From NCBI RefSeq assembly GCF_019649055.1, contig NW_026570221.1, positions 4,340,001 to 4,404,000 of the forward strand: DNA of 64,000 nt. Reading direction: 5' to 3'. The stretch comes from Paramacrobiotus metropolitanus (lineage: Eukaryota; Tardigrada; Eutardigrada; Parachela; Macrobiotidae). How positions within the stretch are numbered: position 1 is the first letter of the stretch; the number at the start of each line of letters is the position of its first letter. Of this stretch, positions 6 to 32,794 are shown in pieces. The notes below the pieces were generated by a model that was not told the DNA's origin, made no database searches, and saw only the letters and a program-made list of their open reading frames with translations. The position numbers and the translations under genes are program-made.

Positions 6-362
6 TGTGAGCGGGGGTTCTTTAGCGTTCACGCTCGTGACGCTACTCGCCACTGGATAACGTGTCTGTGTTGTGCTTCGTTTTGATTGGCTGAGAAGGC
101 TATAGCCGTCCATTGTGTTGTGCCTTGTGGGCAGGACTTAGCCCACGTGCGGAGCAGCATGGATTTGGCTCTCCGATCGATGTTCGCGCTGTGTGGCGCA
201 GTGTTGATTTTCGCTTGTCGAAACTTTCAATATTCATTAAAAGTTAGCAATTAGCTGTGCGGCTTCGCGTGTTATTCGCTGCTCGCAATACTTTACAGCA
301 TTGCTCACTACGCGGAATCAGTTCAGTTCTGGTTGCCGTATATAGATCATTCTGATCTATCA
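6..362 (+). repeat. 5' LTR of G1
   Basis: Starts TGTGAGCGGG and ends near CTATCA, a TG...CA form. It matches 25,497-25,843 over its length with many substitutions and small indels. It holds a CACGTG E-box near 142 and a TATATAG box near 339, both conserved in the 3' copy, so this is probably the element promoter. The 3' end could lie up to 5 bases further right, just before the primer site. Confidence 0.85.
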
Positions 363-367
363 TAATA

Positions 368-377
368 TGGTAGCAGA
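368..377 (+). promoter_or_regulatory. Primer binding site, initiator tRNA-Met type (G1)
   Basis: TGGTAGCAGA directly follows the LTR and is complementary to the 3' end of eukaryotic initiator tRNA-Met (…UCUGCUACCA). G2 has the same ten bases in the same place (51,463), which supports the call. Confidence 0.8.
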
Positions 378-420
378 TCGTTAACGGTTCTCAACTAATC
401 TAATTTCAATTGATTTAATT

Positions 421-470
421 GTCAGGCAAATCTGGCCTGTTATTTGTTGTCAAGCAAATCTGGCCTGTTT
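421..470 (+). repeat. Short direct repeat in the G1 leader
   Basis: A 21-base unit beginning GTCAGGCAAATCTGGCCTGT is repeated with one change at 449. A looser pair of repeats sharing GTCGGTGCA and TGTAAC lies at about 560-680. No coding function is visible in 378-1,760, and the short ORFs there look accidental. Confidence 0.6.
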
Positions 471-1270
471 ACCAGTAAAGCACTGGTGTGTGTGCGGAAT
501 AGCAACGCGCAAACACCACAAGCGGTGCAACTTCCACGTCGACGGATTACCAGCCTTGGCGTCGGTGCAGCGTCTCCCGAGGGGACCTGTGCTGTAACCA
601 GCGCTGAGCAAGAGTGCAAGAGTTTCAGACGGCGGGTAGTGTCGGTGCAAGTATCTCCAGACGGAGAACTTGCGCTGTAACTCCTGCTACGCGGCGAGCA
701 TCCCACAAAGGGATCAAGGCCGTGGGCCACAGGCGGCGAAGCGCTAAAAGGGACGCACGGATCATCGGTGAAGTAAGACTCCACCAAACTGGTGTAGAGC
801 ACCTTGCTGTTGCTACGGCAGTCAGCCGGCACAGCACCTAGTAGGAAGGCGCCACAACCGCTACGGAAAAGCGGCAACGCGGGAGCGGAGTGTGGAGAAG
901 AAATTTGGATCATCTGGAGCGTTTTTCGTGGAACGGACGGGAAACAGGTAGAAAACCCGTTATTAATTTTCGGATTGGTTAGCTGGTAAAATTCGCAATT
1001 TTCATTGGTCCTCGCAGAGCTGAGTATAGACGTATGCGGAGTTTTGCACACGGTGCGCATGTCTGGTCGTTGACCGTGACGTCAGGTAGAATAGAATTTT
1101 AAACGGAGAAACGTGATTGGGCGGTTATAAGAGCCGTGATTGGTTGAAATTTGAACTGAATAATTTGAGCCAGCGGACCAATAGGAATGAAGTAAACAAC
1201 TTTATGGGGATTTTCCACAGATTTCAATGGGAACTGAATAATTTGAATTGAGACGAGTTATTTGAATTGG

Positions 1271-1690
1271 AAAGTGACCTTTTGAGTTGAGCTGAATGGG
1301 AAAGTGACCTTTGAGATAAGAACGTGACCTTTAACATTCGAAAGTGACCTTTACTATAAAGTTTCAAGTGACCTAAAATAAAATTAAATGACCTTTTAAG
1401 TGACCTTTAAGATCTGAAAGTGACCAACGGGGACCTTCAGCGCAGAGAATTTGAGCTTTGTATCGGTTCAGCGATACTAACTGCTGTAGAATTTTGTTTC
1501 CAAACGTGTCAGAAACTGTAAAACGGGTTTCGAAGTTTTGTCTGAAAAGTGACCTTTAGGGCAAACCTCTCGAAGTTTTGACCAAAAAAGTGACCTTTAA
1601 ACGGAACTTGGTCAAATTTTTTCAACCGAAAAGTGACCTTTACAAAGGACTTAGAAAAATTTCGCAAAGTAAAAAGTGACCTTTAAGGCT
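1271..1690 (+). promoter_or_regulatory. Cluster of ten TGACCTTT octamers in the G1 leader
   Basis: Ten exact TGACCTTT octamers, most within AAGTGACCTTT, plus two near matches (TGACCTAA, TGACCAAC), lie in about 420 bases of non-coding leader just ahead of gag. Random expectation for an octamer in that length is far below one. The reverse complement AAAGGTCA is the known NR4A/NGFI-B monomer response element. Whether a nuclear receptor binds here is inference. Confidence 0.7.
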
Positions 1691-1760
1691 ACTGAATATA
1701 CCGTATTAATTACGTGTGTGTGAGAACAATTGACAGGAGCGTCCCAGTTATCCGATCAAT

Positions 1761-4026
1761 ATGGACAAAGAAAAGAAAAGCGTGGAACCAATATCGACTG
1801 GATCAAACAGCAGTCAGGGAAGCCGTGGCTCCCGTGGTTCACAGCAAAGCGCGCCGAACCCCTACAAGATTGACCGTCACCCGTATACTCGGGCAGTTGA
1901 ACACGACAGAAGCACCCGAGCGCCCAAGGCACCCACAAGAAATGACTCGCGGGGCTCTGATAGCACTTATCAGAAGGCGCTCGAGGCGTACGCTAACCAG
2001 GAAAGTTCCAGCGACGACTAGAAGTATACCCCCGCGTCCGCGGCGGGAGGTAACGTGGTGAACCAATCAAAGGTCACCGAAGAAGGAAAGTCTTCGGAAA
2101 AAGGAACAGAAGCAGGTGGCACATCACAGTTGGATGTGGCCGCTGCTGGAACAGATGAGCAGGCTAAAAAAGTGACCCTGACTCAAACGGAAGAGAAGAA
2201 CACAAAGGTCACTGAGGAGGAACTGAAGGAACTCGGGTTGGATGACCTTTCGCTCAATGATAAGGCAATGGGCGATGACCTTTGGGCAACTCCAATGTTG
2301 TCGGACGAATCCAACGAATCGTATTTTACGGACGATGAAACGACAATGAACACGTCTTTCCAGAAAGCGATGAGAGAAGCTGACCGAGCAGAAGGGATGA
2401 CCCCATTCAAGAACATCCCCGAACATCTAATTGAATGAACACAAACAGGAAAGGTCATAAATGTACGACCACCATCACCAAATAGCCCCACGTCAACTCT
2501 GAAGAAACGCATTCAGGAATTGGAAAATGAACTTAGCACCAAGGACGGGCAGGCGAACAAACGGAAGAAAGAATACCAGGAAAGACTGATGTCACTCGAG
2601 ACTCGGTTATTCAAAATGGAACAGCAACGGGGTTATCTGGAGAGCTCAGCGGACGAATGGAAAGTGAAGTATGAGCGCCAGAAAGAAATCGCAAAAGAAT
2701 ATCTGAAGATGGCAGATGATAGAACAATGGAAGGTCATCTCGCCATCAGTGACCTCAACGAAAGTATGTCCGAGGAATCAGCGGAAAGGTCACGACACTT
2801 GGCGGAATTGAAGGACGAGTGTGACCAGTTGCGCCAAAAGGTTACCGAAGCAGAAGCTAAACGGGATGAATACGCCGCCAACCTTGCAGAGGTTACACAA
2901 CGGTTGACAAAGCTGGCAACGGAGACGTTTAAGCTCGGGAACGATCTGAAGCTGCGAGAGGAAGGTATCAGTACTCTGCAACATGAGTCAAAAGGTCATC
3001 AGAAACGTGCGGATGAAGCAGAAAAACTACGTGATGACGCAATCAAGGCGATGCGTGAGGCGAGAGACATTACAGCCACTGAAGGAGAACGCCTGAAAGA
3101 AGAAATTAAAAAGGCCAACCAGGAGAATGAAAAGGTCACGGGAGACATTCAAAAGGTCACTAAGGACGGACTCAAATGGCAAAAAGAAGCACGACGACTG
3201 GATATAATGGTCACGTCATTGGAAATGAAAGACAAAGAAAAGAGCCAAGAAATCACGAAGCTGAATGCTGAACTACTCGAGATGACCACTACAGCACTGG
3301 CGAAAGATGTTGAGTTGATTGCAATCAAGAATCAACTGAGATCAGCCGCCGGAGAATACCAGAAACTTGAAGGAGATGTGAAACAGTTGACCGAACATAT
3401 TAACAAGGCGCAAGAAGAAACCGAAAGGGTTGTACAAAAGGAAACTTTCAAGTGGCAAGACCATACGCGAAAGGTCAAGCTGGAGAATACGGAGTTGAAG
3501 TTAGAGCGTGATGACCTCCATTTGAAAGTTAGACGCCTCGAGGACAAAAACAAGGCACTCCAGATGTCTAACAAGCATAAGGACGAGCCACTCCTGCAGC
3601 ATGGAGTCAAAACAGCAAAGGTGGAATCACCTCCGCCCAGTTACAGCAAGGCGCATGAAACGGGCAAAAGCCTCCATTTCGAGATGCCGCTACGAACCGG
3701 TACTGGCAAAGGAAACGCAGTCAAGACGGAAAAAGATGGAGAAAAGGTCATCGATGATCGGACATCAGAAGGTCACAGTCGGCCGCCAACTTTCGATGGA
3801 ACCTCACACTTCGCCCGTCACGTCGAAACAAAGGTCATCGAAGACGAAGGACGACGGGATGAACGACCCCGCAGCTAGGAGCGTGAAACACGATCCAATA
3901 AGAAAGCAGCAAGGCGCCGTCGAAATAGCGATGATAGTGACGACTCTAGCGATGAAGACAACAATCAGAAGTCGGCAAAGGAATTGACAAAAGCACTTAA
4001 CTCCATGGCCCGGAAAACGACCCTAT
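1761..4026 (+). pseudogene. G1 gag N-terminal half: acidic linker plus long coiled coil
   Basis: One reading frame runs from the ATG at 1761 to about 4,026, interrupted only by in-frame stops TAG 2019, TGA 2436 and TAG 3876. The first about 90 residues are Ser/Gly/Arg-rich, the next about 140 acidic, and 2,520-3,600 encodes a lysine/glutamate-rich coiled coil of about 350 residues. The end is a basic patch (RRRRN) then an SDDSDDSSDED acidic run directly before the capsid. The frame shifts by one at about 4,026 into the capsid ORF. G2 has a coiled-coil ORF in the same place (52,268), so this is a real part of gag rather than chance. A role in particle assembly is inferred. The internal stops mean that it is dead or read through. 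Confidence 0.75.
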
Positions 4027-5514
4027 ATGACCTTTGATGGAAGTCGCGACGCTGTGAATGGCTGGAAAAGACTGGTCAAGGAAACCCTAAGAACCTACCA
4101 GCTTACTGACGATCAAATCATGATCGAAACAGCCAGCGCGGTAAAGGGCCCAGCCAAAACTTGGTTTGAGGGAGAAATGGACATCGCATCGGAAGACGGA
4201 ATCGAATATTCGATAACCGAATGGATGGATAAATTCAAAGATAAATACGGCGACCGAGACGAAGAAGTCTTAGGCTTACTTGAGGCCTACGCAAGGAAGT
4301 TCGAACTGGGAAAAGAATCGCTCGACCAGTATTACCAGGCGATGATGCGCTTTAATGCAAAGAGAATCATCACTGAAAAGCAAGCAGTCAGGTTCCTTAT
4401 TGAAGGATGTAGAGTGGACAATGACCTTTACAAGGCATTACGGGCACAAAAGTGCAAAACGCCAACCGACGTGAAAGACTTTTTCCGACATTGGGCAACG
4501 GGAGAAGAAAAATACAAGGCACCAAAAGGTCAACGTAACCAGGAATACGTAACCATCCGTCAAGGTCAGGTCGAACCGGTGCCACAGCAACGAGGCGCAG
4601 CCGCACCGGTTCAGCAGCAAACGGAATATCGCGCGGAAACTCCGGTCAGAGAGGTCACAGAAAGAGTGACCTCTATTGACAGTCAGACGGGACAGCCGAT
4701 GACGTATGCGATGGTGGCTGCTATACAAGCGGCGGCTCAAGTGAGGCCAGTAGCCCAGAATGTGGCTCCCCAGAATGTAGCCCCGCTGCCACCTCAGAAT
4801 ATGCCTCCCTCGAATATGGGGTTACCGCAACAAGGTAATCTCGGCGGATATGGAAATGGTAACGGGAATTGGAATGGAGGTCAAGGAAACTTCCAGCAGA
4901 ATCGAGGTCAAGGTCAAGGCAACTTTTAGCCCAACAGAGGAAATCAGAACAACTTTCAGCAGCAACAAGGGTCACGAACGGAATACAAGTTTCAGCTGAT
5001 TAACAACTGGGTGGCAAACGGCGTGCAGATGTGCCAGTACTGTATGTACGGCAACCACCAGACACAAGGATGCAAATTTGCCAACACGCCAGCAGATCAG
5101 AACCCGAACTTATTTGCCTTTAGGGAATGGCAACGGTTGCGCAACACGGGTGGTTGGCACCAAGCAGTCGCAAACGGATACGACCTCATCGCCCAATGGT
5201 TTCAGCACAGGGCAAACTTCCAAAACCAGCAAGGAAACGGAAATAGTGCTGGCCAGAACAACGGCGGCTACGGCCGAGGTGGCTACGGCCGCGGCGGCTT
5301 CAGAGAAAGGGGCAGAGGCTATGGCCGCGGGAATTATGGCGGTAACCGAGGCGGCGGAAATGGTGGCGGCCAAGGTAACTACTACAACAATGGTGGTGGT
5401 GGTGGCGCCCAGAACAATGGAGGCGGCCAAAACAATGGCGGACAGCAGCAAGGAAATGTACAAGGCGCACAACAAGGAGGTGCGCCGGTTCAGAGAAACG
5501 GGCAAGAACAGTAG
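4027..5514 (+). pseudogene. G1 gag C-terminal half: capsid, zinc knuckle and RGG/Gly-Asn-rich tail
   Basis: Residues 1-170 match the retrotransposon gag (capsid) fold by pattern: FDGSRDAVNGWK at the start, then AKTWFEGE, LDQYYQAMMRF and a C-terminal helical part. These align with the G2 capsid (DEYYQAMIALRA). After a Pro/Gln-rich linker there is one in-frame TAG (4927), then a CCHC zinc knuckle CQYCMYGNHQTQGC (about 5,032-5,073) and a Gly/Asn/Arg-rich tail with GYGRGG repeats, expected to bind RNA. Frame is kept across the stop for the rest of gag. A long minus-strand ORF over this stretch is a shadow of the glycine repeats. Confidence 0.85.
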
Positions 5515-5564: not shown

Positions 5565-5992
5565 GGAACGGAAAGGTCACCACTGCAGAATGGTACTGCA
5601 GTGAACGTGACCACTGCGACGGCTATACAGATGCCGTCAGCGAAGAAGGAAAGTGGACCGGCTAGATGGATGCCGTCAACGCAAAGAGGAAATGGAACGG
5701 CTATACGGATACCGTCACAGCAGCAAAAAGAACTGGTTACCGGGAAACCAGCACAAGCGGATAAAAGGTCACCGCAGAATGGTACTGCGAGTGGGAATGC
5801 GCAAGTGGGCAAAAGGTCACCGCAGAATGTACTGCGAGTGGGAACGCGCAACGGGACAAAAGGTCACCGAAGAATGGTACTGCAAGTGGGAACGCGCAAC
5901 GCGAACAAAGGTCATCGCAGAATGGAACTGCGAGTGGGAATTGTCGTGACGGTAGCGCGACACTGCAAAAAGGGCAGCAAACTGAAAGGTCA
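5565..5992 (+). repeat. 48-bp tandem repeats carrying AAAGGTCA
   Basis: Four units of 47-48 bases start with AAAGGTCA at 5764, 5812, 5859 and 5907 and contain CGCAGAATGGTACTGCGAG. More copies of the octamer stand at about 5,573 and 5,985. A second short repeat (GGCTATACaGATgCCGTCA) occurs at about 5,619, 5,668 and 5,698. The tract lies between the nucleocapsid and the next long ORF, where G2 has its aspartic protease. All three frames are partly open but none is convincing as a protein. Confidence 0.8.
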
Positions 5993-6010
5993 CCGTATTG
6001 CAGTGAGAAG

Positions 6011-8158
6011 ATGTTAGCAGAACGACGCGCATTACGGAACGCGAAAATTCAACAAGCGCTGCTGAACCAAAAGAAACCGCAGACTGATTATCCAGAAGGG
6101 GTGGAAACGCACCATGAGTGGTTCCGAAAACACATGGAAGAAAACGGCAAGGCGGATGAACAAAGGTCATCACAGCAGAACGAGACTGCGAGAAAGAAAG
6201 ATCAAAGGTCACCTTCCGTGGGAAAAGTCCAAGTAAAAGGTCAGGGAGTTAGTGCGAACGCTAAAGGTCACGCCGACAGCGTCGTGGTAAAAGGTCAAGA
6301 AACAGACTTGACACTGCGAACAGCGCAGCAGAAGAATAGCGAACCGGCACAACAGAACTCCGATGACTCACTTGTGGATGCAGTAACGCTGCAACGGGAA
6401 GGAGATATGGCAAAAAGTGGCCATTGGTTCCCAGTACCAGAGGCACTGGGAACCGAAAATGAAAGGTCACCAACACTTGAAGAGATAGCGGCAATACAGA
6501 AGGAAGCAGCAGCCGCAGCGAAACAATCGCTTGTACCGGACTTGGAATGGTCAAAGCCTATCCCAGTACCAGAGGCACTGGGAGTAAAAAGTGTTAAAAT
6601 CCGGACAAACAAAAAGATAGAAGTCCCATGGGAGATATTGAAGCGAATAACTGAAGAGGAACAGATGTTCGCAAGCGAAATCCGCGGCAAAGCGATTGAA
6701 CAATTGAAAGATCACCAGAAGAAAACGGGACCGGAGGTTATTGAAATATCCTCAGATGAAGGGAGTGCGGTTCAAACTGAACGTGAGCATAGCGCCCCAG
6801 CACAATTTGATGCAAAGGTCAATCCGCAAAGGACATTAACCCCAGAAGAAAGAGCCGGGAGTTGTCACCACGGTTGCTATGAAGACCAGCGTAGAATACA
6901 ACCGCAAACAGAATGCACTAATTGTACCCAAGCCGCATCCCAAGATGACCTTTCGGAATGGCCAAAATGCAATGCAGCGACAGCAGACCTTAAAGGTCAC
7001 ATCCTAAAAGAAGTGAGGAGCATCTTACGGACCGTGAGCATGTGTAACCCACACATTGAACGATATCATTGGAATAGATATCGAGCGTGGCTCTCTTGCG
7101 TCAGAAATTTCATATACGGAAGAGGGAAATGGTTGCAATATTGGCAACGGTGTGTAGATAATGGAATCCAGAACCCTCATGAAAGAATATTGTCAAGACG
7201 GAAACTTGAAATTGAAAACGAAGAAATGAACGAAGAGATTCAGTTATGGGAAAATGCGAGAATTGAATTATTCTGGGACTTCCGTATCAACCACATGTAT
7301 AAAGGTCAAGGGAAAACGATTAACTTCCCATCAGGACTCGGCACACCCGTTTACGAGTCAGTCGAGCAATTCTGCAAGGCACTTCATCATGACGACTCGG
7401 ATATATTTGAAACGTATTGGAAGAAGTTCGAAGACGAAGTCCCCATATTTGACATTAAGGAAATGCGGGAGTTACAAGTGACTCGCAAAATAAGGGAAGC
7501 CGGTTTTATGATAAAGAAGAAGTTGACCTTTGCACCAGACCCTGACGGAGTTGAATACCCGGAACGTGGTGGTGATACGTGGTGTATGTATGAAACGATT
7601 CCGAGTGATGACTTTGTCACCGAAGAACTGATGGCAAATTGCGTCTTCGTTGGTTCCAAAAGACCTAAAGGTTACGAAACGGTCCAAACAGATAAAGGTG
7701 ACAAAGATACTGACAAAGAAACTGAAAAAGAGGAAACACCAATAGTGGAAGAAAGATCGAATGAAACAGAAGAACATTCCCCGAGTGCTGTTGAAATAGC
7801 ACAAATGTTAACCGATAGGGGAGCAATGTGGAAAAGGTTTCAAGAGGAAGTAGAAAAGATAACGAAAGGTCAACAAGACCCAGTAACGGAGGCAAAAAAC
7901 GGAGAAAGGTCACTCGATAACGGTGAAGAATGTCTGCCGGTCGAGCAGACCAAAAGGCCACTGATGAGCCTCGAGGAGATTGACGAATTGCAAAGGGCAA
8001 ACCAAGAAGAAGAAAAGTCAAACTCGGATGAAACAAAAAAGGTCATCGACGAAAATCCGAGTGGCACGGAGTCACCCGAGAATCGCCGCACGATATGGAC
8101 GGAAGACGAAAGAAACGGGCAAACCTCTGCTCAAAAATCTGAAAGCGAAAAAACTTAA
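6011..8158 (+). CDS. G1 large ORF between gag and RT (PVP repeats plus helical domain)
   Basis: A 715-codon ORF from the ATG at 6011. The first third is polar and carries KGH, ERS and KVT peptides wherever AAAGGTCA falls in frame. Two nearly identical peptides, FPVPEALG and IPVPEALG (residues about 140 and 184), are encoded across two DNA hairpins. Residues about 330-560 (NPHIERYHWNRYRAWL… to about CMYETIPSDDFV) are Trp/Tyr-rich and helical and appear related to the G2 ORF at 55,470-56,447. The tail is acidic. I see no D-T/S-G protease motif. Function unknown; by position it is part of the gag-pol precursor. It ends by frameshifting near 8,110-8,158 into the next pol segment. Confidence 0.7.
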   Translation: MLAERRALRNAKIQQALLNQKKPQTDYPEGVETHHEWFRKHMEENGKADEQRSSQQNETARKKDQRSPSVGKVQVKGQGVSANAKGHADSVVVKGQETDLTLRTAQQKNSEPAQQNSDDSLVDAVTLQREGDMAKSGHWFPVPEALGTENERSPTLEEIAAIQKEAAAAAKQSLVPDLEWSKPIPVPEALGVKSVKIRTNKKIEVPWEILKRITEEEQMFASEIRGKAIEQLKDHQKKTGPEVIEISSDEGSAVQTEREHSAPAQFDAKVNPQRTLTPEERAGSCHHGCYEDQRRIQPQTECTNCTQAASQDDLSEWPKCNAATADLKGHILKEVRSILRTVSMCNPHIERYHWNRYRAWLSCVRNFIYGRGKWLQYWQRCVDNGIQNPHERILSRRKLEIENEEMNEEIQLWENARIELFWDFRINHMYKGQGKTINFPSGLGTPVYESVEQFCKALHHDDSDIFETYWKKFEDEVPIFDIKEMRELQVTRKIREAGFMIKKKLTFAPDPDGVEYPERGGDTWCMYETIPSDDFVTEELMANCVFVGSKRPKGYETVQTDKGDKDTDKETEKEETPIVEERSNETEEHSPSAVEIAQMLTDRGAMWKRFQEEVEKITKGQQDPVTEAKNGERSLDNGEECLPVEQTKRPLMSLEEIDELQRANQEEEKSNSDETKKVIDENPSGTESPENRRTIWTEDERNGQTSAQKSESEKT
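6426..6454. other. Hairpin 1 in G1 (10-bp perfect stem)
   Basis: GGTTCCCAGT and ACTGGGAACC pair around the 9-base loop ACCAGAGGC. It encodes FPVPEALG. The same loop recurs in hairpin 2 at 6561. Confidence 0.7.
6561..6583. other. Hairpin 2 in G1
   Basis: TCCCAGT and ACTGGGA pair around the same ACCAGAGGC loop as hairpin 1, 135 bases downstream. It encodes IPVPEALG. G2 has an equivalent pair at 55,594 and 55,667. Confidence 0.65.
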
Positions 8159-8603
8159 CGATTCGCGGGGAAATGAAAGTGACCTTTCATCCGGCGACGA
8201 AGGAGTTGATGAACTTCCACTTGAAAAGGCTGACAAAGGTCAAGCTACTGCACAAGAATGCGAGAGCAGTGACTCAAACTCGGAATGGACGAGTTCAAGC
8301 GATAACTCAACGACTTCAGAAGATTCAGGTGTAAATGACCTTTCCGAACAAGAAGACATGTTAGACTTGGATGAAGACGACAAAGTCGATGAGGAAAAGG
8401 AACAAGATATAAAAGTTAGAAGAGTTAAAATTCAGCGAACGGGACTGGATAAAGATGTGATTAGAGTTTACAGCGACCAGCGAATCAAGCTCAAACTGTC
8501 AATTTGCACACGCGTAAAGGTCAAGATGGGAAGATATGCACCTGCCTCAACGAAACTGATGTTCACACCCGTCTGCAAGCTGAGACTGATGTACAGCCAT
8601 TAA
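8105..8603 (+). pseudogene. G1 pol: acidic linker and pre-RT domain in a shifted frame
   Basis: The frame that opens at 7980 becomes meaningful after about 8,105. It first encodes a Ser/Asp/Glu-rich linker (SSDSNSEWTSSSDNSTTSED), then DIKVRRVKIQRTGLDKDVIRVYSDQ, a beta-rich segment ahead of RT. It is overtaken by the RT frame at 8,504-8,600, so a small indel separates the two. In G2 the corresponding segment is continuous with RT (about 56,920-57,190). Confidence 0.55.
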
Positions 8604-9664: not shown

Positions 9665-10407
9665 GGTCATTCCTTAGTCTTGCGAACTATTACCGCAAGT
9701 TCATAATGGGATATGCACAGAAGACGTGCCACTTGTACGAATTACTCAGACAAGACAAACAAGTGAAAAAGGATTGGAATAAAGTACGTGAAGAAGAATT
9801 CAACAGTCTGAAACAGCTGTTATGTGAGGGCCCAGTATTGGCGAAATTTGACCCCGCAAAACCAACTGTCATTGAATGTGACGCGAGTAAAGAGGGAATA
9901 GGAGCCGTCCTCTCACAAGAAGGTCATCCGATCGCGTACGCGAGTCGCGTCTTACACGCAGCTGAAAGGAACTACGGCGTAACGGAATGGGAATGTCTGG
10001 CACTAGTGTTTGCTGTCAGGAAATTCAAGCCATTTATTGATTACGCGGAATTCACCGTAAGAACGGATCACCAGGCGCTGACCGACCTATTAAGGTCAGA
10101 GACGAATAAAGTTGGAATGAATAAGCGTTTGACCAGATGGGCAATGGCACTACAAGGTCACCAGTTCAAGATTGAATATAAACCAGGGAAATATTGCGAT
10201 AACGCGGACGCATTATCAAGAGCGCCAATTGAAGGTCCAACTGGCCAAGAAGAAGAATTTGACGAAATCCCTAACTCTGAAGATTACAAGAAGGAATTTG
10301 ATACGAAAGAACCAGAAACTGAAATTGGGCAGTTGTTTCTACAGATGGTGGAACAGAGAGAGAAACGTCTAAAGGTCAGTTCAGCTACGGCGAAGGAGTC
10401 GGCTTAA
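9601..10407 (+). pseudogene. pol: G1 RT connection and RNase H
   Basis: Continues RT after the frameshift: MDPEKVTAV, then RQLRSFLSLANYYRKFI (thumb/connection), and RNase H with ECDASKEGIGAVL, the second acidic region ECLALVFAVRKF, and TDHQALTDLL. It ends GKYCDNADALSRAP, the typical RNase H C-terminus of gypsy elements. A TAA at 10405 stops the frame, which stays open in register beyond it to the integrase. Confidence 0.9.
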
Positions 10408-10428
10408 ACCGGAGTAAACGCGAATCGG

Positions 10429-11399: not shown

Positions 11400-11420
11400 G
11401 ACTAGGAAAGTGCACCGCTT

Positions 11421-14999: not shown

Positions 15000-15005
15000 A
15001 AGTTA

Positions 15006-17084: not shown

Positions 17085-18244
17085 CTGTTCTAATTAACAC
17101 GAAGATCAGCATGATGCGATACCGTGCTGAGAATGACGGAGCCCACTTTAGGCTAACCAAAAGGACAGATGACGGAAAATTCAAAACGGTATTTTACGAC
17201 GCCAAGAACACACCCCTGTGGGAAATTATCACACAAGGTCACCAAGACTTCGCTGCGCCACACTTGGAACTTGAAGCGCAACAACCGGCACACGAAGGCG
17301 GGGCCGAGGAAATGGAAGAAGAGGCGCAGGCAGACACATCGACAGCTGCAGCGGAGGAAACAGGAGGCGGCAGAAAATCACTGCAACGGGTACATGATAT
17401 TATTAAAGGTCACGCTAAACACCTAGTGTGTGAAGACCCTAACTGTGAAGACTGTAATAAATCGGGCGACTCTGAAGAAGAAGGTGACACAGAGGGAGAA
17501 GAGGAAGAAGAAGCCGAAGAAGATGACGAACCTTTACCTCCTAAAGCGGTTATCCAACCGAAGAAAGCAGCCAAATTGGAAGAAGCAATGAGACCGGATA
17601 AGAAGAAAAAGGATGACAAAAAGGATGATGAGAAGAAGAAAAAGGAGGAGAAAAAGGGCGACGAGCAAAAGAAGAAAGACCGTGAGAAGCAGAAAAGCAA
17701 ACCCGCGACTGCAGACGTTGAGATCCTTGATACGACGGAAAGGTCATCGTCACCAGCGCCTCCGAAGAAATTTGTTATTGAATCAGCGACGTCAAAAGTA
17801 AAGGATGTTGAACCGACGACATCAAAAGGCAAAACTCTCGCGGTGAAGCTAGTCGTCACTATAGTTATTTCAGCATCCACACCGAAAGAAAGACGGGAGA
17901 AACAGAAGGCAAAGAGAGAGGCGTCTCGCGAATCTACGGCATCAGAAGTGAGTCTACCAAGCACTTCGACGGTCAGCGCGAGGTCACATACGGACCCAAA
18001 AACGGTTAGAGGAAGGACCACAGAACCAAGGTCACAACAGAGCTTAGCTGACGCCTTCGAAAAAAGAAAGAAGGCGAAGAGTGAACCCGTTACGTCAAAA
18101 CCGAAAGGTCACGCGAAAGCTAAAGCAATATCAAAACTCGAAGCGCTGCAGATGTTCACATATACCCAACCGGATGGTGATAGTGAACTCGAGTATTTTC
18201 GGGAGACGAAGCGGAATTCGATGACCCCGACGACGATAATTTAA
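17057..18244 (+). CDS. G1 cargo ORF B: highly charged protein
   Basis: A 395-codon ORF overlapping the previous one by 28 bases in another frame. Its meaningful reading begins slightly upstream (NKAALDQLWNIVPE…), so the two were probably one gene. It has a short folded part (DGAHFRLTKRTDDGKFKTVFYDAKN), an acidic stretch, then a lysine/glutamate-rich run (KKKKDDKKDDEKKKKEEKKGD) and a Ser/Thr-rich tail. Function unknown. The Ser/Phe-rich minus-strand ORF of 203 codons over it is the shadow of the charged repeats. Confidence 0.5.
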   Translation: MPESDREDVTVLINTKISMMRYRAENDGAHFRLTKRTDDGKFKTVFYDAKNTPLWEIITQGHQDFAAPHLELEAQQPAHEGGAEEMEEEAQADTSTAAAEETGGGRKSLQRVHDIIKGHAKHLVCEDPNCEDCNKSGDSEEEGDTEGEEEEEAEEDDEPLPPKAVIQPKKAAKLEEAMRPDKKKKDDKKDDEKKKKEEKKGDEQKKKDREKQKSKPATADVEILDTTERSSSPAPPKKFVIESATSKVKDVEPTTSKGKTLAVKLVVTIVISASTPKERREKQKAKREASRESTASEVSLPSTSTVSARSHTDPKTVRGRTTEPRSQQSLADAFEKRKKAKSEPVTSKPKGHAKAKAISKLEALQMFTYTQPDGDSELEYFRETKRNSMTPTTII

Positions 18245-18264
18245 CAGTTTCCGAACTCGTCGAT

Positions 18265-19658
18265 ATGTTTGAGGAAGTAGAGAAGAATTATTTCGCGCGA
18301 ATTAGAACGGCACCGGTCACGACGAAATTCAGGACAGGCCTAAAGAAATACTTAAAGGAGAAACATCGTAGTTTCACAAAGCAAAAGTTTGAAGCCAATT
18401 TGGAATACGCTCGGAATGCGGGGAAATTGATACAGAAGCATCCCAACTTCGAGTACAAGGCAAAGCTGTTCAGACCGACAAGCGCGGATAAAGCGTTGAC
18501 GAGCCCTAATGAAGATGGCGTTACGCGGATAGAAAGGGTGATCAACGGAATGACGAGTCCGTTGGGATCAACGAGTCACCGGATTAGTCAGTACATTAAT
18601 GCCGTTAGGCAAGATGGGAAAGGAATGATTAAAGAAATCGATACGGCCACTGAACGGGTGCTACCTAAGATGATTAAAAAGGGCATCTTGCGAACAACGA
18701 ACGCACATAGAGGATAGCCGATTAGATACACGAGACTGGACTTAATACCACCGGAGAAACAGGATCGTTGCCATATGTCGGACAGTGAGGACACAGAAAA
18801 GGCGGAGATTCCTCGAACGGGTGACCCTAAGAAAGAACGCGCCAAATCCAAGGCACAAGTCCTGAAAACGGCGAAACAACGTAAATTACCAATGGATTCT
18901 GGCTCAGAATCAGATGACGAAGATCAAGCCACTGCACTTACGCCTTCTACACCAGTGACAGAGAAGGACGAACAATCCAAAGGTCAAACAACGGCTGAAA
19001 CGACTGAGAAGGAAGCGGATTCTAAAGGTCAAGAGAGTCCTGCGCCGACCGAAACACCGAAAGGTCACGAGACTCCAGATGAAGGGAAAAGTTTACGACC
19101 CTTACGGATAAAGCCACAGCAGATACAGAAGCGGCCTCAGCACGACAGGTGTTTCAGAAATCGTTGTTAAAAGATGCACACGCATTGGGGAAACCGAAAG
19201 GTCAGGAGACTCCAAATCAGGGAGAGAAGTCAGACGAACCGAAATCGGCTCAATCATCGTCAGGATCACTAGCAAAGCTAACGATCGATGAGAAACAGAG
19301 TCAAGAGACGGAGCCTACGGACTCGGCATCCCCCCAGAAACCGATAACTACAGAGAAACCAGTTGACTTACCTGATTATATGCTTGGGTTACCGTTGAAC
19401 GATACGAACCCATCGTGGAAAGAAATCAAACAAGTCTTGGAAACTCAACCAGAACGTCGTATGCTCGTCGGTGAACTCAAAGATACGGTTTTCACAAACT
19501 TGAAAGGGAAGACGTCAAAAAACCAGTTAGATCGGATCACTAAAAGGGCCTTTAACGAAGGATCCGATACTAGCTGCTTTCGGCTACTATCTGCAGTGCT
19601 CTCGCTATCCGGAACCGATTCGTGGACGTGCCAGGTTATTTCCCTTTCTCCCGGGTAA
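18265..19658 (+). pseudogene. G1 cargo ORF C: basic domain and polar linker
   Basis: Frame 18,265-18,717 (RTGLKKYLKEKHRSFTKQKFEANLEYARNAGK… ) reads as a continuation of cargo ORF B after a frameshift. A TAG at 18715 is followed in the same frame by a polar region to 19,170, which then shifts at about 19,090-19,150 into 19,149-19,658 (…LPDYMLGLPLNDTNPSWKEIKQVLE). The polar part is full of KGQ/KGH peptides from the recurring octamer. No recognised domain. Confidence 0.5.
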
Positions 19659-20166
19659 ACCGGGAACTACGGTCATTGAGAGATGTAATGGATTGTTGTG
19701 CTGTTAGCACCGTAAACCAAATTCTAAAAGCTGTGCTGACAATGACAATATTGTACCGACCTCTCATCTGTTCTGCACGGACGAAACCGAGGAAAACTTG
19801 GGGAACTTGTTCCGAGGAAAACTTGGGATCCGATACACCGACTTCAACGGGTTTTCATATTATCTACCGCCGAAAGATCGAACACCGAGACTGAAGATGA
19901 ACGTAGTGTCATGGAAGATAGCCATTACTGATGCGGCCATACCGGGCATTGGCGGAACAAAAGGGGCATCATGGGATGACCTTTCGAATTATATGGCGGT
20001 CCAGTATGAGTTGGGTGAACTGAATATCGAAAAAGACCGAAAATGGATTCAGAAAGCGGTCCAAAGTCTGATTGAAGACGACGACGCACTTGAACTCACC
20101 CGGGATGGGCGGATCGACTTCAAGGCACACGACCCATCCGAGTCGTCGGAAAAGCCTAAAGAGTGA
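19659..20166 (+). pseudogene. G1 cargo ORF D: small folded domain
   Basis: After two more frame changes near 19,560-19,800, the frame at 19,798-20,166 encodes an about 120-residue segment with balanced composition (LGIRYTDFNGFSYYLPPKD…, SWDDLSNYMAVQYELGELNIEKDRKWIQKAVQSL). The last part has the rhythm of a winged helix, but that is only an impression. It closes the 5.2 kb block 15,006-20,166 that G2 lacks. Confidence 0.45.
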
Positions 20167-20267: not shown

Positions 20268-20567
20268 AAAAAGGTCACTCTAAAACTAGCAAAGTGCAGA
20301 AAATAGCTGTATAAAAAGGTCACAGCAGTCAGGACAGGCGAGCGAGTTCAGTACAGATAACGTGAGAAAGGTCACCACGTTATAGTGAGAAAGGTCACGG
20401 GGAGATAGAAAAGTCTCAGCTCAGTACTGGCGTAATCTAAATAAGCATAAAAATGAAAAATGCCGCGTTAACGGATAAGGATAGAGAAAGGTCATTGGAA
20501 ACAAAATACTATGATGGAATTGTTTTGAATTGCAGATTCAAGTGGCAGAATGGCACAGAAAGGTCAA
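20268..20567 (+). promoter_or_regulatory. Six AAAGGTCA octamers upstream of the post-pol ORF
   Basis: Six exact AAAGGTCA copies (mostly AAAGGTCAC) and one variant (AAAGGGGTCAC) lie in about 300 bases, mostly untranslated, between the cargo block and the post-pol start. The orientation is opposite to the leader cluster at 1,271-1,690. Confidence 0.65.
20519..20535 (+). promoter_or_regulatory. Putative splice acceptor for the G1 post-pol ORF
   Basis: TTGTTTTGAATTGCAG ends at 20,535, 14 bases before the ATG at 20550. G2 has TTATCTTGTTCTGCAG ending 16 bases before its homologous ATG (60,726). The shared placement is the main support; no transcript was seen. Confidence 0.5.
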
Positions 20568-23500
20568 GCCAGCAAACGGAGCCAGTTAACACTTCCAAGC
20601 GACGTCGACCAGTCTACCGGCTACAATCCTAGGTGTCTGGACTGCTTACGGAATAACAAAAAGGTTGATAAGAAATTCCCGTGCTAGATGTGCGTTTACA
20701 AGTTGAAGGATCAACACATCGTCCACCTCGTTGAACTCACGGAAGCTAAACGTGGAAACATGGATGTGTTTCAGAACCTCATTAGCGCGAGGAATTACCG
20801 GCAGTGTTGCTTTACTTAGTAAAAGTAAATAGTAAACCATACTTAGTAAGCCGTTTTTGCCTTTTACTAATTAAGTAAAAAGTAAGTAAGCAGCAAAACG
20901 GAAAAGTAAAAGTAAAGTAAAAGTAAGAGCAGCCGAGGCTTCAGAAGTAAATAGTAAGTACAAGAAAGAGGCGCGAAACGGAAATAGTTTAATTAGTAAA
21001 GTAGTCTTTTTACTAAACGTCCGCAACAGATAAAAGTGACGGGCATCATCAGAATTCTGCTGAACATGCTTTTTTCCATAGAAGTTACGTTTGGCAGTAC
21101 AGGTTTTCTTCTGAAGCGCTAAAATTGCTGCACTGCAGACGCCTTCAGCGGTTAAGGTGGGCGACTTACGTGACTGCCAGGCGTATTAGCTAGTGCTGCT
21201 TCACTGCAACGGATACGATGTATTGACTTTTGATAATTTTGTTAAAAAATAAGTACTGTAATTTTACACAGAACCGAATTCTTTATTGAAACAAATCTCT
21301 GAGCACAAACTGAAATTAATCGGTGTGCACACTGTCGCATAGTACAACCTGTACAAGCAGTTATTTTGTTTTAGATACTTAATATGCTTAAGAAATGAAT
21401 AATTGTGGCAAAATTGAAAACTTTGTTGCGTACGATTTTCATAAAACACGAATAGTAAATACTAGTTTACTAGTGATTACTAAGTTAGTAAAAGTAAGTA
21501 AGGTTACGATAAAAAAAGTAAAAAGTAAGTAAAAGTAAGGAAGAAAGATTATGAAAAGTAAATAGTAAAGTAAATAGTAAAGTCAATAGCCAGACGAAAA
21601 GTAAAAAGTAAGTAAGGTTTTGGGGCAATAGTAAATACAACACTGGAATTACGGCAGTATCCCAGTGGAAGAGAGAATGCTTCTCGAAGATCGTTACCGA
21701 GAAGCGATACAGAATAACGAAAGTGCCTGGGACGAGACTTTGGAACCACTGAGATGCCCAGAAACAGATGCATACCGCAAAAAGTTCAACGAGGGCAAAG
21801 AAAAAATGCGGCTGAAACAAATGGAAGATGAAATTCGCGCAAGAATTGAAGCGGAGAATAAGCGGGCAAGTGAACAGGCAGCACGAGAACAACCGCCTAA
21901 CCCAGCGAGTTCAGCCGTATCGACAGCAAGTCTGAAGGAAGACGATGCGCAGATCATACGACAGGCACTGATTCTCCAAATCGAAACATTGGAGAAGGAT
22001 CCAGCCGCCATGCAACCAGATCTGTTTGAAGCACTGCTTCGCGAAAAGGTCAGACTTCAGAAGGGATTCGAACCGGCACCATACATAAAGAAGGAAATTG
22101 AAAGACGTATGGACGAACTGCGTAAGTCTCGCCAAACCGAAAGTGATGTCCTGCAAGCGCTTAGAGGCCTCAAACGCGATGAGGACTTCAAACGGCCACG
22201 ATCACCTCCGAGAAGAGAAAGGTCACGCGGACATTCACGCGAACACGAGCGGACTTACGACCGAAGAAGTGAAAGGTCACATAAACATTCTCGAGAAAGG
22301 ACTCGTGATTACCACAACGAAAGGTCACGCGAACGTTCTCGTGATTGGGACTACCGTGGCGGACGAGGATGGGAACGTCATGGCAATCAAATAATGGAAA
22401 CCAGTATCCAACGAAAGATTGACACGGCAAAAATCCTGTCGGGAACACGAGAACGCGAAGAGCGACGACGAGCAGAAGCGTTTCGGACAGAACCTGAAAA
22501 ACAAGGTCATCAGGTGCCGATGGGAGTCGCGTTCCGCAACCGCAATGTCAGAATGGACACACCTGAAAGGTCACGAGATAACCGACGGGAAAGTTGAAAC
22601 ACGCGAAACAGAAGTCCGGATCCATTTGATAAGGGGTGGCAGGAAGACGCCGCATATTTCGATGGGTACGAATCAAATAAAAGGTCATCCAGCAGAGAAC
22701 GGGAAGATACCCCTCCGAAACATCAGCGGGTATACTCGACAGTTCACGTAGTAGACCCAATCGTGAGCGCCGCACAAGAAGATGACCCGATGGAAATGGC
22801 GCCCCAAGAAAACGTCATTCATCGAATAACTGTGGTGTTGGACAGTGACCTTCAACCGTCAACTTCGGCGAAAAAAGAGCCGCCACGACACGAACAAGAA
22901 CAGCAAAGAGCACAAGAAGGTCGACGAGAACCGGATAATCGTCGTGAAAACGTTCGACGGGAGAATCGAAATTCAAGATTTGACGATCGGAACAGACGAC
23001 CGGAATTGATTAATATGGATTATCAGATGGACAATCTCGAAGAGCAAAGGGCAGAGATTTGTCGACATTTCGGAATTGATATTGAGTCGGTTCAGGCCGC
23101 ACAAATTCTGAACAGCCTGGAGCACTTACGACAGTTTCTACGGGATTCAGACTATGCGAAGGAGCTGCGACGAGGGATAACCAGTCGAGTGCGTATCCTA
23201 CGCGAATCAGCGCTGACGCATTACTTTCCCATACGACAGAACGGATTGAACAGTTTACTGGATTTGAATCTGCTGAATGTGCCACTGGACACTACTGATA
23301 CTATCGGAATGACACAGATCTACTATACCGATTATCCGGAACGACGGGAATACGTGTCACAGTTTGTGTTACGACACGTGAATCCAGCTTTTAAGCTGTT
23401 AGCAGCAAGAGCGGCGATAGGGCTACAAGTGGATCCTGGGTCGCATAATGAGAAAAGGACAGGCCAGAAAATTTTTGCTGCACGACTGGCACACTACCAG

Positions 23501-24133
23501 TCACAGAATCAGTTGGTGTCCAACACCATGGCGGATGACATACCACCGACCCTTAGAGCTCAAGTTGTGAAGCTGGGAATGCCCATGGAACACGTCGGAA
23601 TAGCCCATACGGCTAAATCGATGTTGAGAAAATTTAAGATCCGAATGGAGAAGGGCAACCTAACACAACGATTGGCCTCACAAGTACAAGAACGGGTCGA
23701 CCGGATTAAGGACACTACGGGCAGTGACTATGTTGAACCAGCGGATGGCGTCGAGTTCTACATAGAGGAGTTCTTGGTGAACAAAGGTGACCGACGCCCG
23801 GCACACGCTCCAAACCAGTTCGGAAAACGTGGCATCCGTAATCAGCACATCCGTGACAACTACGCGGATATACAACGTCGTTTAGCGGATGACCCTAATA
23901 ACCGCAGATTGCAGCTGGAAGAATATGACGCGCGTCATCAACTAGAGGCGATCAAACGAAACCGCCAAGGAAAAGGTCGCGGTCAGCGACAAGTTGACGC
24001 GGAAAAGGTCATGGGACTTGAATCGGTACAGCCAGTTGACCGAACCTCTGACCAAAATCAGCCTGAAGCAGCGAGAAAACGCCCGCCGCGAGATGAAGAC
24101 GGCGAGGGCGATTCAAATGAGATGCAAGAATAG
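20550..24133 (+). pseudogene. G1 post-pol ORF: zinc-ribbon, RS-like and helical domains
   Basis: Starts at ATG 20550 (MAQKGQ). About 30 residues in comes YNPRCLDC, then a second CxxC pair whose middle is hit by a TAG at 20685. This matches the YNPDSCFPC…CVGC start of the G2 ORF at 60,726. The gene is split by the hAT-like insertion at 20,802-21,645, resumes in register at about 21,650, passes an alpha-helical region and an Arg/Ser-rich stretch (RERSRGHSREHER), meets one in-frame TGA at 22595 and continues to 24,133. The last about 400 codons (EICRHFGIDIESVQ… to KFKIRMEKGN) are helical and align by pattern with the G2 ORF. Without the insertion it would be 910 codons. Function unknown; the nucleic-acid-binding look is inference. 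Confidence 0.7.
20802..21645. mobile_element. Non-autonomous hAT-like element, 844 bp
   Basis: Ends are CAGTGTTG on the left and CAACACTG on the right. An 8-bp target duplication is visible with one mismatch (GAATTACC at 20,792 and GAATTACG at 21,646). Both subterminal regions are packed with AGTAA/AGTAAA repeats (20,815-21,000 and 21,480-21,640), like the transposase-binding arrays of hAT elements. No transposase ORF. Dropping the insert plus one duplication keeps the host ORF in register (854 bases shift frame 0 to frame 2, as observed). Confidence 0.75.
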
Positions 24134-24358
24134 TGCAGATCGTTAGGATCTCACTATCAAAAAGACGCGTCTACGGCTATTGTCGGTACGCACAGAAATG
24201 GTATTGTATGAAGGGCGACATAACGTATCAACATAAACTGTATTTGGGTTTTCGTCGTTTTCAGCGTTTCGATTGCACGAAAAGTCAAATTGCGGGAGTA
24301 GCCCTGCGGCGAACAGTCGGTTCACTCTCATTATAAATGGTGAAAAGTCACAAATGAC

Positions 24359-24640
24359 TGAAAAAGAGAAAGAAATCATGTGGAGTATTTTGGGGTTGAA
24401 ATTGATTCGGTCTAATACGCCGGCCCCAAGGGAGTAGTTACGGTAATCAAGCCGGCTCTCTCTCTTCCAGCGATTCAGTGTCAAAACTTTAACGAGAGAA
24501 ACTACGGTAATTAAGCCGGATCTCTTGTTACGAAAGTGCGCCACAAGCGGCGAAAAAGAAAAAGACATCAGGTGGAGTACATCAGGGGTAAATTTAATGC
24601 GGTAACTAGCCGGCCCCATCGGAGATGCAACGGTAAAATT
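24359..24640 (+). repeat. Two diverged direct repeats in the G1 3' region
   Basis: GAAAAAGAGAAAGAAATCATG… and GAAAAAGAAAAAGACATCAGG… start two copies of about 85 bases (24,359 and 24,555) that share GGTGGAGTA and GCCGGCCCCA…GAG. A shorter repeat, ACGGTAATYAAGCCGG, lies between them. This stretch, 24,134-25,496, has no convincing ORF and is the element's 3' untranslated region. Confidence 0.6.
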
Positions 24641-24767
24641 ATGCCGGCACTCTGGCCGCAGGAGGCGATAATGAAACGGATGTGCGACAGAAAGGTCTTA
24701 TGGAAAGTTTAACCAGGGAGGCAAGCGAAGAGGCGCTTGGAAGTCGTCAAAAATCGGCTAAGTTCCT

Positions 24768-25206
24768 CCATGACCTTTGACGGAAGTTTAATTGAAGTCA
24801 AGATGACCTTTGGGACCATTACTGCGTCATAAATGGCCTCATAAATGGCGGCCCAACAGAGTCATAAATGTGGAATTAAAGTCGCATGACCTTTTGGAAC
24901 CATTACCCAATTGAGTCGCACATCCCGGATCATCTCTATGTGGATGACCTTCACCAGGGAGGAAGCGAATCACGCTTGTCTTTATGACGTCCCTCCATGA
25001 CCTTAATGGATCTCAGTATTAAGCCGTACGTTTGATACGCACCCAATTCCAAAGATGAAGCAGTATTCCTTAGTCGTACTTGATACGCACCTGATTCTCA
25101 AGCGGATTTGTGATGGCAAGTCGCATCTCATATGCGCGGAATTGCTCAACAAAGCGGAATGGGCCAAAAGTGCTTGAAACTTTGGACAGGACCAGTGACC
25201 TTTACG
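24768..25206 (+). promoter_or_regulatory. Second TGACCTT cluster in the G1 3' untranslated region
   Basis: Four exact TGACCTTT octamers and two seven-base matches (TGACCTTC, TGACCTTA) lie in about 440 bases. The orientation is the same as in the 5' leader and opposite to most coding-region copies. Confidence 0.65.
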
Positions 25207-25496
25207 AGTCAACGGAGGATCCTATTCTACATTTGATTAAACTTCTGTTGATCTGTTTTGTTGATTTGATAGTATTTTGATAGTGTTGATGTTTTAGTAT
25301 TTTTTATAGAATGGATCTCTTTATTCACATCGTGTTTATGGAATTGTACTTAAAGGAATTGATGTGATAAAACGGAATAAGAGATTCGATGTTTTTTTAT
25401 TAGCAGTCGAGCACACACAGACAGTGGCGACCTTCGTCTTTTCGTGGATTTGGAGGATGTTGAGCCTCAACGGAGCTCGGCCTCCCCCCAGAGGCA

Positions 25497-25843
25497 TGTG
25501 AGCGGGAGTTCACTAGCGTTCACACTCGTGACGCTACGCGCCACTGGATTACGTGTCTGTGTTGTGTTTCATTCTGATTGGCTGACGGCTATAGCCGTCC
25601 ATCGTGTTGTGCCTTGTGGGCAGGACTTAGCACGTGGCGGAGTAGGGTTGATTTGGCTCTCCGATCGATGTTCGCGCCGTATCGCGCAGTGTTGGATTTC
25701 GCTTGTCGGAACTTTCAATATTCATTAAAAGTAGCTACGCGACATCGCGTGTTATTTTCGCTGTTCGCAATACATGTAGCATTGCTCACTACGCGGAATT
25801 AGTTCTGTTCTGGCTGCCGTATATAGAGCACATTGGTCTATCA
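25497..25843 (+). repeat. 3' LTR of G1
   Basis: Matches the 5' LTR from TGTGAGCGGG to CTATCA, with many substitutions and several small indels. Keeps the CACGTG and TATATAG boxes. No clear polypurine tract is seen just before it. Confidence 0.85.
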
Positions 25844-32752: not shown

Positions 32753-32794
32753 AGGCAAGCCGGATCCCTTATCCGGCGCCGGATCCCTTATCCG

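Follow-up and report, generated by a model that had tools for sequence, protein, structure and literature searches.

Results

The 64,000-nucleotide stretch of DNA analysed here (the window) begins with an LTR retrotransposon, G1, whose body is saturated with a single octamer, read either as AAAGGTCA (forward) or as TGACCTTT (reverse). The word is strongly enriched, kept exact by selection, placed at the same sites in a distant subfamily, used on both strands of coding sequence and relieved of constraint in two clades. Between positions 1 and 25843 it occurs 90 times, 64 times forward and 26 times reverse, against 1.22 copies expected under a dinucleotide Markov model, in keeping with the chance expectation of about one given in the initial annotation of this DNA. 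When octamers were ranked by z-score it came first (z 80.4), so that the proposal withstands the possibility of another word being the more enriched. The remaining 38 kb of the window hold 5 copies against 1.46 expected. The saturation of G1 is thus confirmed, and is stronger than first claimed.

G1 belongs to a Ty3/gypsy family of the 170 Mb host genome and is a decayed copy. The expected domain order (reverse transcriptase (RT), RNase H, then integrase) and long terminal direct repeats were found, the latter also in a copy of T, a distant subfamily with a young copy, whose LTRs are 99.1% identical over 335 bp. The 3' LTR of G1 ends at about 25855, beyond the 25843 of the earlier claim, and no target site duplication or primer binding site was recognised by eye in the flanks. 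The G1 features are as follows.

6..372, + strand: 5' LTR, no octamer; aligned with 25497-25855, 318 of 373 columns identical, 35 substitutions, 20 gap columns
1261..1700, + strand: leader carrying ten octamers, TGACCTTT in every case; a 20-bp tandem array lies within it (1300-1353)
2439..3878, + strand: coiled-coil-like ORF before Gag, 8 octamers, all forward; coiled-coil Pfam matches sub-threshold only
3988..5514, + strand: Gag-like ORFs with Cys/His-containing part, named from their position; 3988-4926 without Pfam hit above cut-off
5763..5940, + strand: 48-bp tandem array with four octamers (TRF period 48, 3.7 copies)
5765..8158, + strand: pre-pol ORF, whose 18 octamers occupy three forward and two reverse frames; no Pfam family
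8465..10407, + strand: reverse transcriptase and RNase H (RVT_1 E 7.1e-26, RT_RNaseH E 1.3e-33)
10408..11436, + strand: integrase zinc domain and start of core, broken by insert (Integrase_H2C2 E 3.1e-16 on 10408-11073)
11400..13577, no strand assigned: later insert in the integrase region, boundaries approximate; 11,484-13,577 without octamer
14217..20166, + strand: post-pol ORFs, broken in G1; one piece matches linker-histone PF00538 at E 0.013, below cut-off
20270..20566, + strand: six forward octamers before the last ORF group
20547..24133, + strand: last ORF group, with a Cys4 segment (stop in G1), an Arg/Ser-rich part and a C-terminal ORF
24134..25496, + strand: 3' region with four octamers that are exact and two of AAGGTCA type, all in TGACC orientation
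25497..25855, + strand: 3' LTR, no octamer

The T ORF that corresponds to the G1 pre-pol ORF contains an aspartyl protease (L042 4172-7999), and the rve core of integrase was matched in T as well. LTRs, protease, RT, RNase H and integrase are shared with giant Ty3/gypsy forms that carry extra ORFs; the present elements differ from Ty3/gypsy in their length of ~19-26 kb, the coiled-coil-like ORF before Gag, several post-pol ORFs in G1 and B, and the octamer saturation itself. Rfam returned nothing at gathering scores over the window, and a search for SL1 gave no match, its controls being equally silent.

The octamer had initially been described as seeded along the whole length of G1, and this holds for the body with its 90 copies but not for the LTRs (no exact octamer in 6-350), for 350-1260 or for 11,484-13,577 inside the later insert. 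Each cluster singled out at that time was recovered: ten copies in the leader (1275-1677), four in the 48-bp array (5764, 5812, 5859 and 5907), six before the post-pol ORF (20270-20559), four exact (24771, 24804, 24887 and 25196) plus two AAGGTCA-type (24945 and 24998) in the 3' region, and the seven AAGGTCA placed between 22,040 and 22,690 (22046-22681). All three forward frames of the coding sequence are used, as had been claimed, and two reverse frames in addition. One-mismatch neighbours of the octamer sum to 59 in G1 against ~27 expected, an excess that is expected for a decaying copy, and in 18 of the 59 the mismatch lies at base 1. The T pieces hold 98 octamers. The base that follows the word is C in 45, T in 26, A in 15 and G in 4 cases in G1, and C in 53, T in 26, A in 17 and G in 2 cases in T. 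Helical phasing was not found in the spacing of the copies (R 0.05 and 0.07 at 10.5 bp), which is compatible with independent binding.

Comparison of motif-rich relatives demonstrated that the octamer is under natural selection. The mismatch rate was 0.018 at motif positions and 0.144 in the flanks, at odds with the notion that the copies mutate like neighbouring bases, and the octamer was exact in 5234 of 5794 comparisons (90%), against 41% for 300 permuted words. Alleles common to at least two copies were found 3 times in 128 motif columns and 224 times in 768 flank columns, that is, 13 times more rarely in the motif, whereas singleton alleles (16 and 167 in the same columns) were only mildly fewer there; selection therefore acts in the transmitted lineage and not on dead copies. 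Where synonymous choice permits the octamer it fills 37 of 47 places in T and 42 of 50 in G1, ~80%, while permuted words fill 4-5% in the same test and the best single permuted word reaches 0.42 and 0.33. Split by strand, 10 of 12 reverse and 27 of 35 forward places are filled in T, and 6 of 8 and 36 of 42, respectively, in G1; exact conservation in coding sequence is 89.4% for reverse and 90.7% for forward sites. Coding reverse sites are thus about as full and about as well conserved as forward ones, which is evidence against a signal in single-stranded RNA.

The density of the word differs sharply between relatives: at 30 RT loci, 20 (G1 included) carry 13-17 octamers per 4 kb and 10 carry 0-5. 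In pieces with 65-77% nucleotide identity between T and G1, 10 of 13 G1 sites are exact in T, whereas B1 keeps 0 of 14 sites in the piece compared, where its identity to G1 is 80%. Clades B1 and B2 have lost the octamer and evolve at those positions at the flank rate, so that accelerated loss was rejected; their copies have long open frames without octamer constraint. An exact successor octamer in B was also rejected, since none was comparable and only a degenerate word with weak conservation emerged. The B leaders are rich in AGMTSR, a pattern picked on data that include these leaders (38 versus 5.7 in shuffles, and 26 versus 3.1), and SAKMTS stands at ~2x expectation in both B sets without the leaders; 22 of 150 and 43 of 150 permuted patterns were conserved equally well or better than the B words. 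Degenerate-word enrichment by itself is weak evidence: a different word gives the element G2 (51144-63490) a score of 14.5, and in 26000-38000, which is not part of an element, an all-A/T pattern reaches 17.1. Outside the family, octamer clusters occur at L070, L072 and L073. The L073-L074 retroelement, which has no detected similarity to the compared pieces, carries six octamers within the 1.1 kb that surround its leader and start, those of the L073 leader cluster being in forward orientation, and this makes a shared reader plausible.

Orientation depends on the region. In the untranslated parts of seven related stretches 47 octamers are reverse and 2 forward: reverse copies make up 10 of 10 in the G1 leader, 10 of 10 in L045, 4 of 4 in L046 (part) and 7 of 8 in the T leader, and 4 of 4 in the G1 3' region, 6 of 7 in L047 and 6 of 6 in the T 3' region. 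Near-matches in untranslated stretches do not favour the reverse form. Coding octamers are mostly forward, and most copies in G1 and T lie in ORF regions. Genome-wide, octamer pairs in the same orientation number 3880, and opposite pairs 100 and 307.

Discussion

The reading that best accommodates these data is that AAAGGTCA would be a cis-acting recognition site in double-stranded DNA, kept by the active lineage nearly wherever its proteins allow. A sequence-specific DNA-binding protein acting in trans would bind many sites over ~19-26 kb of integrated DNA, and the bound copy would stay open and transcribed, the array acting as a distributed enhancer or an anti-silencing platform. Whoever the reader may be, we give even chances to a DNA-level site recognised by a candidate protein with an activating or anti-silencing outcome. 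The leading candidate reader would be a monomeric nuclear receptor of the host, of NR4A (HR38-like) type, since the octamer is the published NR4A element and the host encodes a DNA-binding exon of this kind; this assignment is tentative, and we would not call it probable. Known promoters have few NBRE sites each, a difference from the 90 copies in G1 and the 98 in the T pieces, which run through the body and are absent from the G1 LTRs. The site itself is identical: PMC6912296 gives the NBRE, the monomer element of NR4A proteins (Nur77/Nurr1/Nor1), as AAAGGTCA. The host genome yields 63 exon matches to zf-C4, and the NR4A-like gene is represented by a single exon of its DNA-binding domain, L064, whose closest match is NGFI-B/NR4A1 (1cit, E 1.4e-21).

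Several observations count against a trans-acted DNA site. The G1 LTRs, where a promoter is expected, lack the octamer; the long open frames of B1 and B2 without constraint indicate that not every relative needs it; and the orientation bias of untranslated regions is unlike that of an orientation-free site, although the L073 leader shows the opposite orientation. In our judgement, moreover, it is not rare for an octamer to match the site of some animal factor. The initial annotation had proposed, as opposed to protein constraint, that the copies are sites in the DNA at which a host receptor or a self-encoded factor binds, and the core of that proposal fits the evidence, while the untranslated orientation bias and the clade loss are left unexplained by it.

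The main rival to the host receptor is a reader encoded by the element, which by a VANC-like logic would bind the octamer on its own subfamilies and relieve silencing, B1 and B2 having switched both reader and site; we regard this as doubtful. Octamer density follows subfamily at the RT loci, the B leaders are dense in other words, and same-orientation pairs dominate genome-wide. There is also a precedent: as described in PMC5735166 and PMC10398659, Arabidopsis VANDAL elements and their VANC anti-silencing proteins use a short exact word, dense in one transposon family, in same-orientation arrays and tandem repeats with subfamily variants (the dense same-orientation motifs and variants in PMC5735166), and AT9TSD1, unrelated to VANDAL, also carries a VANDAL word. 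The present elements resemble VANDAL in all these respects. The case differs in that this is an animal LTR retrotransposon whose word fills coding sequence on both strands instead of lying mainly in non-coding DNA, and any anti-silencing effect is here inferred. Against an element-encoded reader, the ORF pieces scanned with Pfam and NCBIfam contained no DNA-binding domain above cut-off except integrase, and no Pfam hit to DUF1985/DUF287, the VANC domains named in PMC5735166, was found in those of G1 and T. The large post-pol ORF (sub-threshold linker-histone) was rejected as reader, since its homologue is uninterrupted (1780 aa) in octamer-free B1 and G1 15000-20166 has no match in T piece L043. 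For no ORF was the resemblance to G1 clearly greater in T than in B1: the comparison yielded a single match, short and partial (27 of 161 residues), and two integrase pieces came out as ties. The weak conservation of the B words, with AGMTSR chosen on data including leaders, and the octamer cluster in another retroelement also speak against it. A broader version, in which the whole element body is a site array for a dedicated anti-silencing reader, encoded or commandeered, and related clades switched to a degenerate word as site and reader co-diverged, is conceivable although we lean against it; if true, the plant VANC strategy would have an independent counterpart that works through coding sequence.

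A role at the RNA level appears unlikely; in such a scheme the UGACCUUU copies of the leader and 3' region would base-pair with AAAGGUCA of the coding RNA, thereby compacting or marking the genomic RNA. The near-exclusive reverse form of untranslated copies and the mostly forward coding copies fit such pairing, and leader copies mostly have a G in front of them (9 of 10 in G1, 5 of 7 in T), a potential partner for the C favoured behind coding copies; since UTR copies can pair at that position too, it does not serve as an argument against RNA pairing. However, coding reverse sites are about as saturated and conserved as forward ones yet unable to pair with the UTR copies, and the L073 leader cluster is forward. 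Near-matches in T include both wobble-compatible changes (G at base 2 in 4 cases and at base 8 in 6) and incompatible ones (T at base 5 in 6 cases and G at base 6 in 4). Hence the earlier argument that both orientations favour DNA over single-stranded RNA stands for the coding sequence, whereas the one-orientation bias of untranslated regions fits RNA pairing.

Spread of the octamer without function, by duplication or biased gene conversion, is very improbable: some copies do lie within the 20-bp and 48-bp tandem repeats, but the flanks share no extension past the base after the octamer, conservation is limited to the octamer while flanks diverge, and B1 retains none of the compared sites despite its similarity to G1. 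Selection on a repeated peptide with the DNA word following can practically be dismissed and was rejected as the cause, as KGH, ERS and similar peptides recur in the ORFs but five frames are used, untranslated regions are dense in the octamer and synonymous choice follows the word.

In the open-licence PubMed Central literature we found no report of such an octamer array in an animal retroelement. The pattern is a very clear DNA-level signal across the protein-coding sequence of a mobile element, filling ~80% of permitted places, and a single genome that contains natural subfamilies whose sites are dense, lost or possibly switched provides a ready test system, with one short sequence as the candidate binding site. 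If confirmed, a trans-acted DNA site would mean that animal LTR elements evade silencing, or hijack a nuclear receptor, by way of sequence-specific recognition that is distributed along the element.

Octamer abundance in G1

G1, the LTR element at the start of the window, is of the Ty3/gypsy type with reverse transcriptase (RT), RNase H and an integrase zinc domain, and its ORFs lie both upstream and downstream of pol. It is an old, broken copy, and its LTR pair shows 35 substitutions across 373 aligned columns. The initial annotation had described G1 as seeded along its length with the octamer AAAGGTCA (reverse form TGACCTTT), and its local counts were correct on recount. Using a dinucleotide Markov model, we found this octamer to be the most enriched of any in G1 (z 80.4), with 90 copies in 1-25843 (64 forward and 26 reverse) when 1.22 were expected; the other 38 kb of the window contain 5, compared to 1.46 expected. 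The base directly after the octamer in G1 is C in 45 cases, T in 26, A in 15 and G in 4. Across the assembly (169.8 Mb, 533 contigs), AAAGGTCA occurs 42,562 times, compared to 15,522 for the same word read backwards. The G1 LTRs contain no octamer, an absence that argues against simple promoter function and favours a role spread over the element's body.

Features of the window (forward-strand positions)
11400-13577: insert of ~2.1 kb in the integrase region of G1; contains inverted repeats (11612-11663/11732-11783, 11408-11454/12288-12334); no octamer in 11,484-13,577
18187-20166: G1 post-pol ORF pieces, possibly winged-helix domains; sub-threshold linker-histone match (Pfam E 0.013); the homologue in the octamer-free relative B1 is uninterrupted (1780 aa)
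32312-33234: 300-nt stretch in two 100% identical copies, 483 bases apart
39221-41941 and 47504-49093: two LINE-like copies ~7.15 kb apart, first ORF encoding RT and endonuclease, several 300-nt stretches 99-100% identical between copies; one octamer each, at 40818 and 47970
51144-63490: G2, LTR element

Selection on the octamer in relatives of G1

An RT search yielded 107 scored matches including G1 from 1561 first-look candidates; many of the matches have open frames. Among the best 30 of the 107, compared over ~4 kb each (G1 itself being L009), 20 loci carry 13-17 octamers and 10 carry 0-5, and these two groups split apart on an unrooted tree. The branch of one octamer-poor locus, L020 (C1:2449266-2453321), is several times longer than the others.

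The expectation that the octamer is conserved above its neighbouring bases was borne out: in the alignment of the 20 rich loci, mismatch was 0.018 at motif positions and 0.144 in flanks, and 5234/5794 site comparisons (90%) were exact, compared to 41% for 300 permuted words. Among 18 of these loci (L009 and L010 were excluded as more distant), shared minor alleles numbered 3 in 128 motif columns versus 224 in 768 flank columns (1188 in all 3948 non-motif columns), and singletons 16 versus 167 (637 in all non-motif columns). Motif columns therefore show a 13-fold deficit of shared changes but only a 1.3- to 1.7-fold deficit of private ones, from which we conclude that selection operated in the transmitted lineage, before the copies inserted.

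The octamer is also dense in T, a distant subfamily (C9, L042-L044) with 98 octamers in 17.0 kb, a higher density than in the rich loci. Its RT matches, five of them with equal bit score, show 82% amino-acid identity to G1, and the LTRs of the T copy are 99.1% identical over 335 bp, indicating that this copy is young. In four pieces aligned at 65-77% nucleotide identity, G1 and T have 10 octamer sites in common, out of 13 in G1 and 18 in T.

Saturation of coding sequence on both strands

For coding sequence, we compared the places where the encoded peptide permits an octamer by synonymous choice with those occupied.

Octamer saturation (occupied/permitted; forward, reverse)
T (three ORF stretches, 9.1 kb): 27/35, 10/12
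G1 (eight stretches; octamer in overlapping frames counted once): 36/42, 6/8
B1: 0/23, 0/8
B2, a further octamer-poor relative: 4/19, 0/6

In each set 200 permuted words gave 4-5% saturation; across the four sets, the highest value for any one permuted word ranged from 0.29 to 0.42. Since the octamer may itself have shaped the peptides, the test has some circularity, from which the contrast with permuted controls and with B1 is free. In the pre-pol piece, G1-T amino-acid identity was 0.81 at 16 codons with the octamer in both, 0.22 at 23 G1-only codons, 0.37 at 27 T-only codons and 0.40 at 588 others, whereas the RT piece showed the opposite (0.43 at 7 shared-octamer codons versus 0.64).

Exact matches made up 90.7% of comparisons at forward sites and 89.4% at reverse sites, and mismatch was 0.015 and 0.029, respectively. 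As both orientations are similarly filled and conserved, strand has little influence in coding sequence once the limits set by the peptide are allowed for.

Relaxed constraint in octamer-poor relatives

B1 (C97, L040-L041) contains no octamer in 20 kb, and B2 (C6) contains 8 in 18 kb compared to 0.8 expected. Ten of the rich loci were compared with these and other relatives.

Mismatch from rich loci (motif, flanks; exact sites)
B1: 0.274, 0.275; 0/369 (permuted words 10%)
B2: 0.264, 0.254; 24% (permuted words 12%)
L020: 0.365, 0.408; 0/96
L009 and L010: 0.023, 0.203

Motif mismatch toward B1 and B2 is close to that of the flanks, and hence B shows relaxed constraint on the octamer. The octamer is present in T, although in a majority of ORF pieces no other relative diverges as far. 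Its loss in B is therefore more parsimonious than a twofold gain, and is the probable history.

Other, related words are enriched in these copies. AGMTSR occurs 38 times in the B1 leader and 26 times in that of B2, compared to 5.7 and 3.1 in shuffles. With leaders removed, SAKMTS was the top greedy pattern in B2 (14.8) and second in B1 (14.0, behind a looser pattern at 14.4), each roughly twofold above expectation; a single shuffled set for each gave 9.3 and 5.0, and a non-element stretch reached 17.1 with an all-A/T pattern. Conservation of the B words is weak: of 150 permuted patterns, 22 and 43 were equal or better. These patterns suggest that the B clades may have switched to another word. 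Against this, G2 scored 14.5 with a word of its own; its degenerate word ASGCKNA occurs 116 times (32.4 expected), 94 forward and 21 reverse over G2 segments.

Orientation in untranslated stretches

In untranslated stretches of the family, the reverse form is nearly exclusive.

Reverse share of octamers
Leader: G1 10/10, L045 10/10, L046 (partial leader) 4/4, T 7/8
3' region: G1 4/4, T 6/6
L047 untranslated stretch: 6/7, the lone forward octamer at base 42

The independent number of these octamers is far smaller, as these stretches are related to one another and consist in part of tandem repeats, and near-matches within them show no preference for the reverse form. Genome-wide, octamer pairs 10-40 bases apart were in the same orientation in 3880 cases versus 100 and 307 in the two opposite arrangements. 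RNA pairing, which the initial annotation had raised as an alternative to a DNA-level role, would predict a one-orientation bias of UTR octamers; in coding sequence, both orientations are used. One orientation is also a property that these octamers have in common with the target arrays of VANC, the anti-silencing proteins of Arabidopsis VANDAL elements (PMC5735166).

A retroelement-like stretch for which no similarity to the compared family pieces was detected (C1:2894200-2898300; L073 1-1101, L074 1-3000) carries six octamers in 1.1 kb, all forward: five precede the start codon at 700 and one follows it, with a further one in the next 3 kb. This forward leader cluster counts against a strict orientation rule. 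Elsewhere, L070 (C1:331400-332600), without a match to the family pieces compared, has four forward octamers in ~150 bases (529-674) and one reverse at 375, adjoining A/T-rich stretches, and could be a host regulatory cluster.

Candidate readers of the octamer

AAAGGTCA is the NBRE, the element of the nuclear receptor NR4A (PMC6912296). The host genome contains 63 exon matches to zf-C4, the DNA-binding domain family of nuclear receptors, and the closest relative of exon L064 is NGFI-B/NR4A1. We take L049 and L062 to resemble NR5 receptors, and L051 and L054 to resemble ERR receptors. As a whole, this receptor repertoire appears arthropod-like. Among the element ORF pieces scanned (Pfam, NCBIfam), no DNA-binding domain scored above cut-off, integrase aside. 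T, B1 and G1 share a Cys4 segment (C-x2-C-x12-C-x2-C) with a basic tail behind it, which is Arg/Ser-rich in T and G1; the G1 version contains a stop. This segment is the foremost element-encoded candidate reader. Searches of the open-licence literature yielded no animal retroelement reported to carry an array of this kind.

Our data best support a model in which double-stranded octamer DNA is read by a trans-acting protein and the full-length array aids the element. Such a protein, possibly NR4A, would bind the octamer as double-stranded DNA, and binding along the array would activate the element or counter its silencing.
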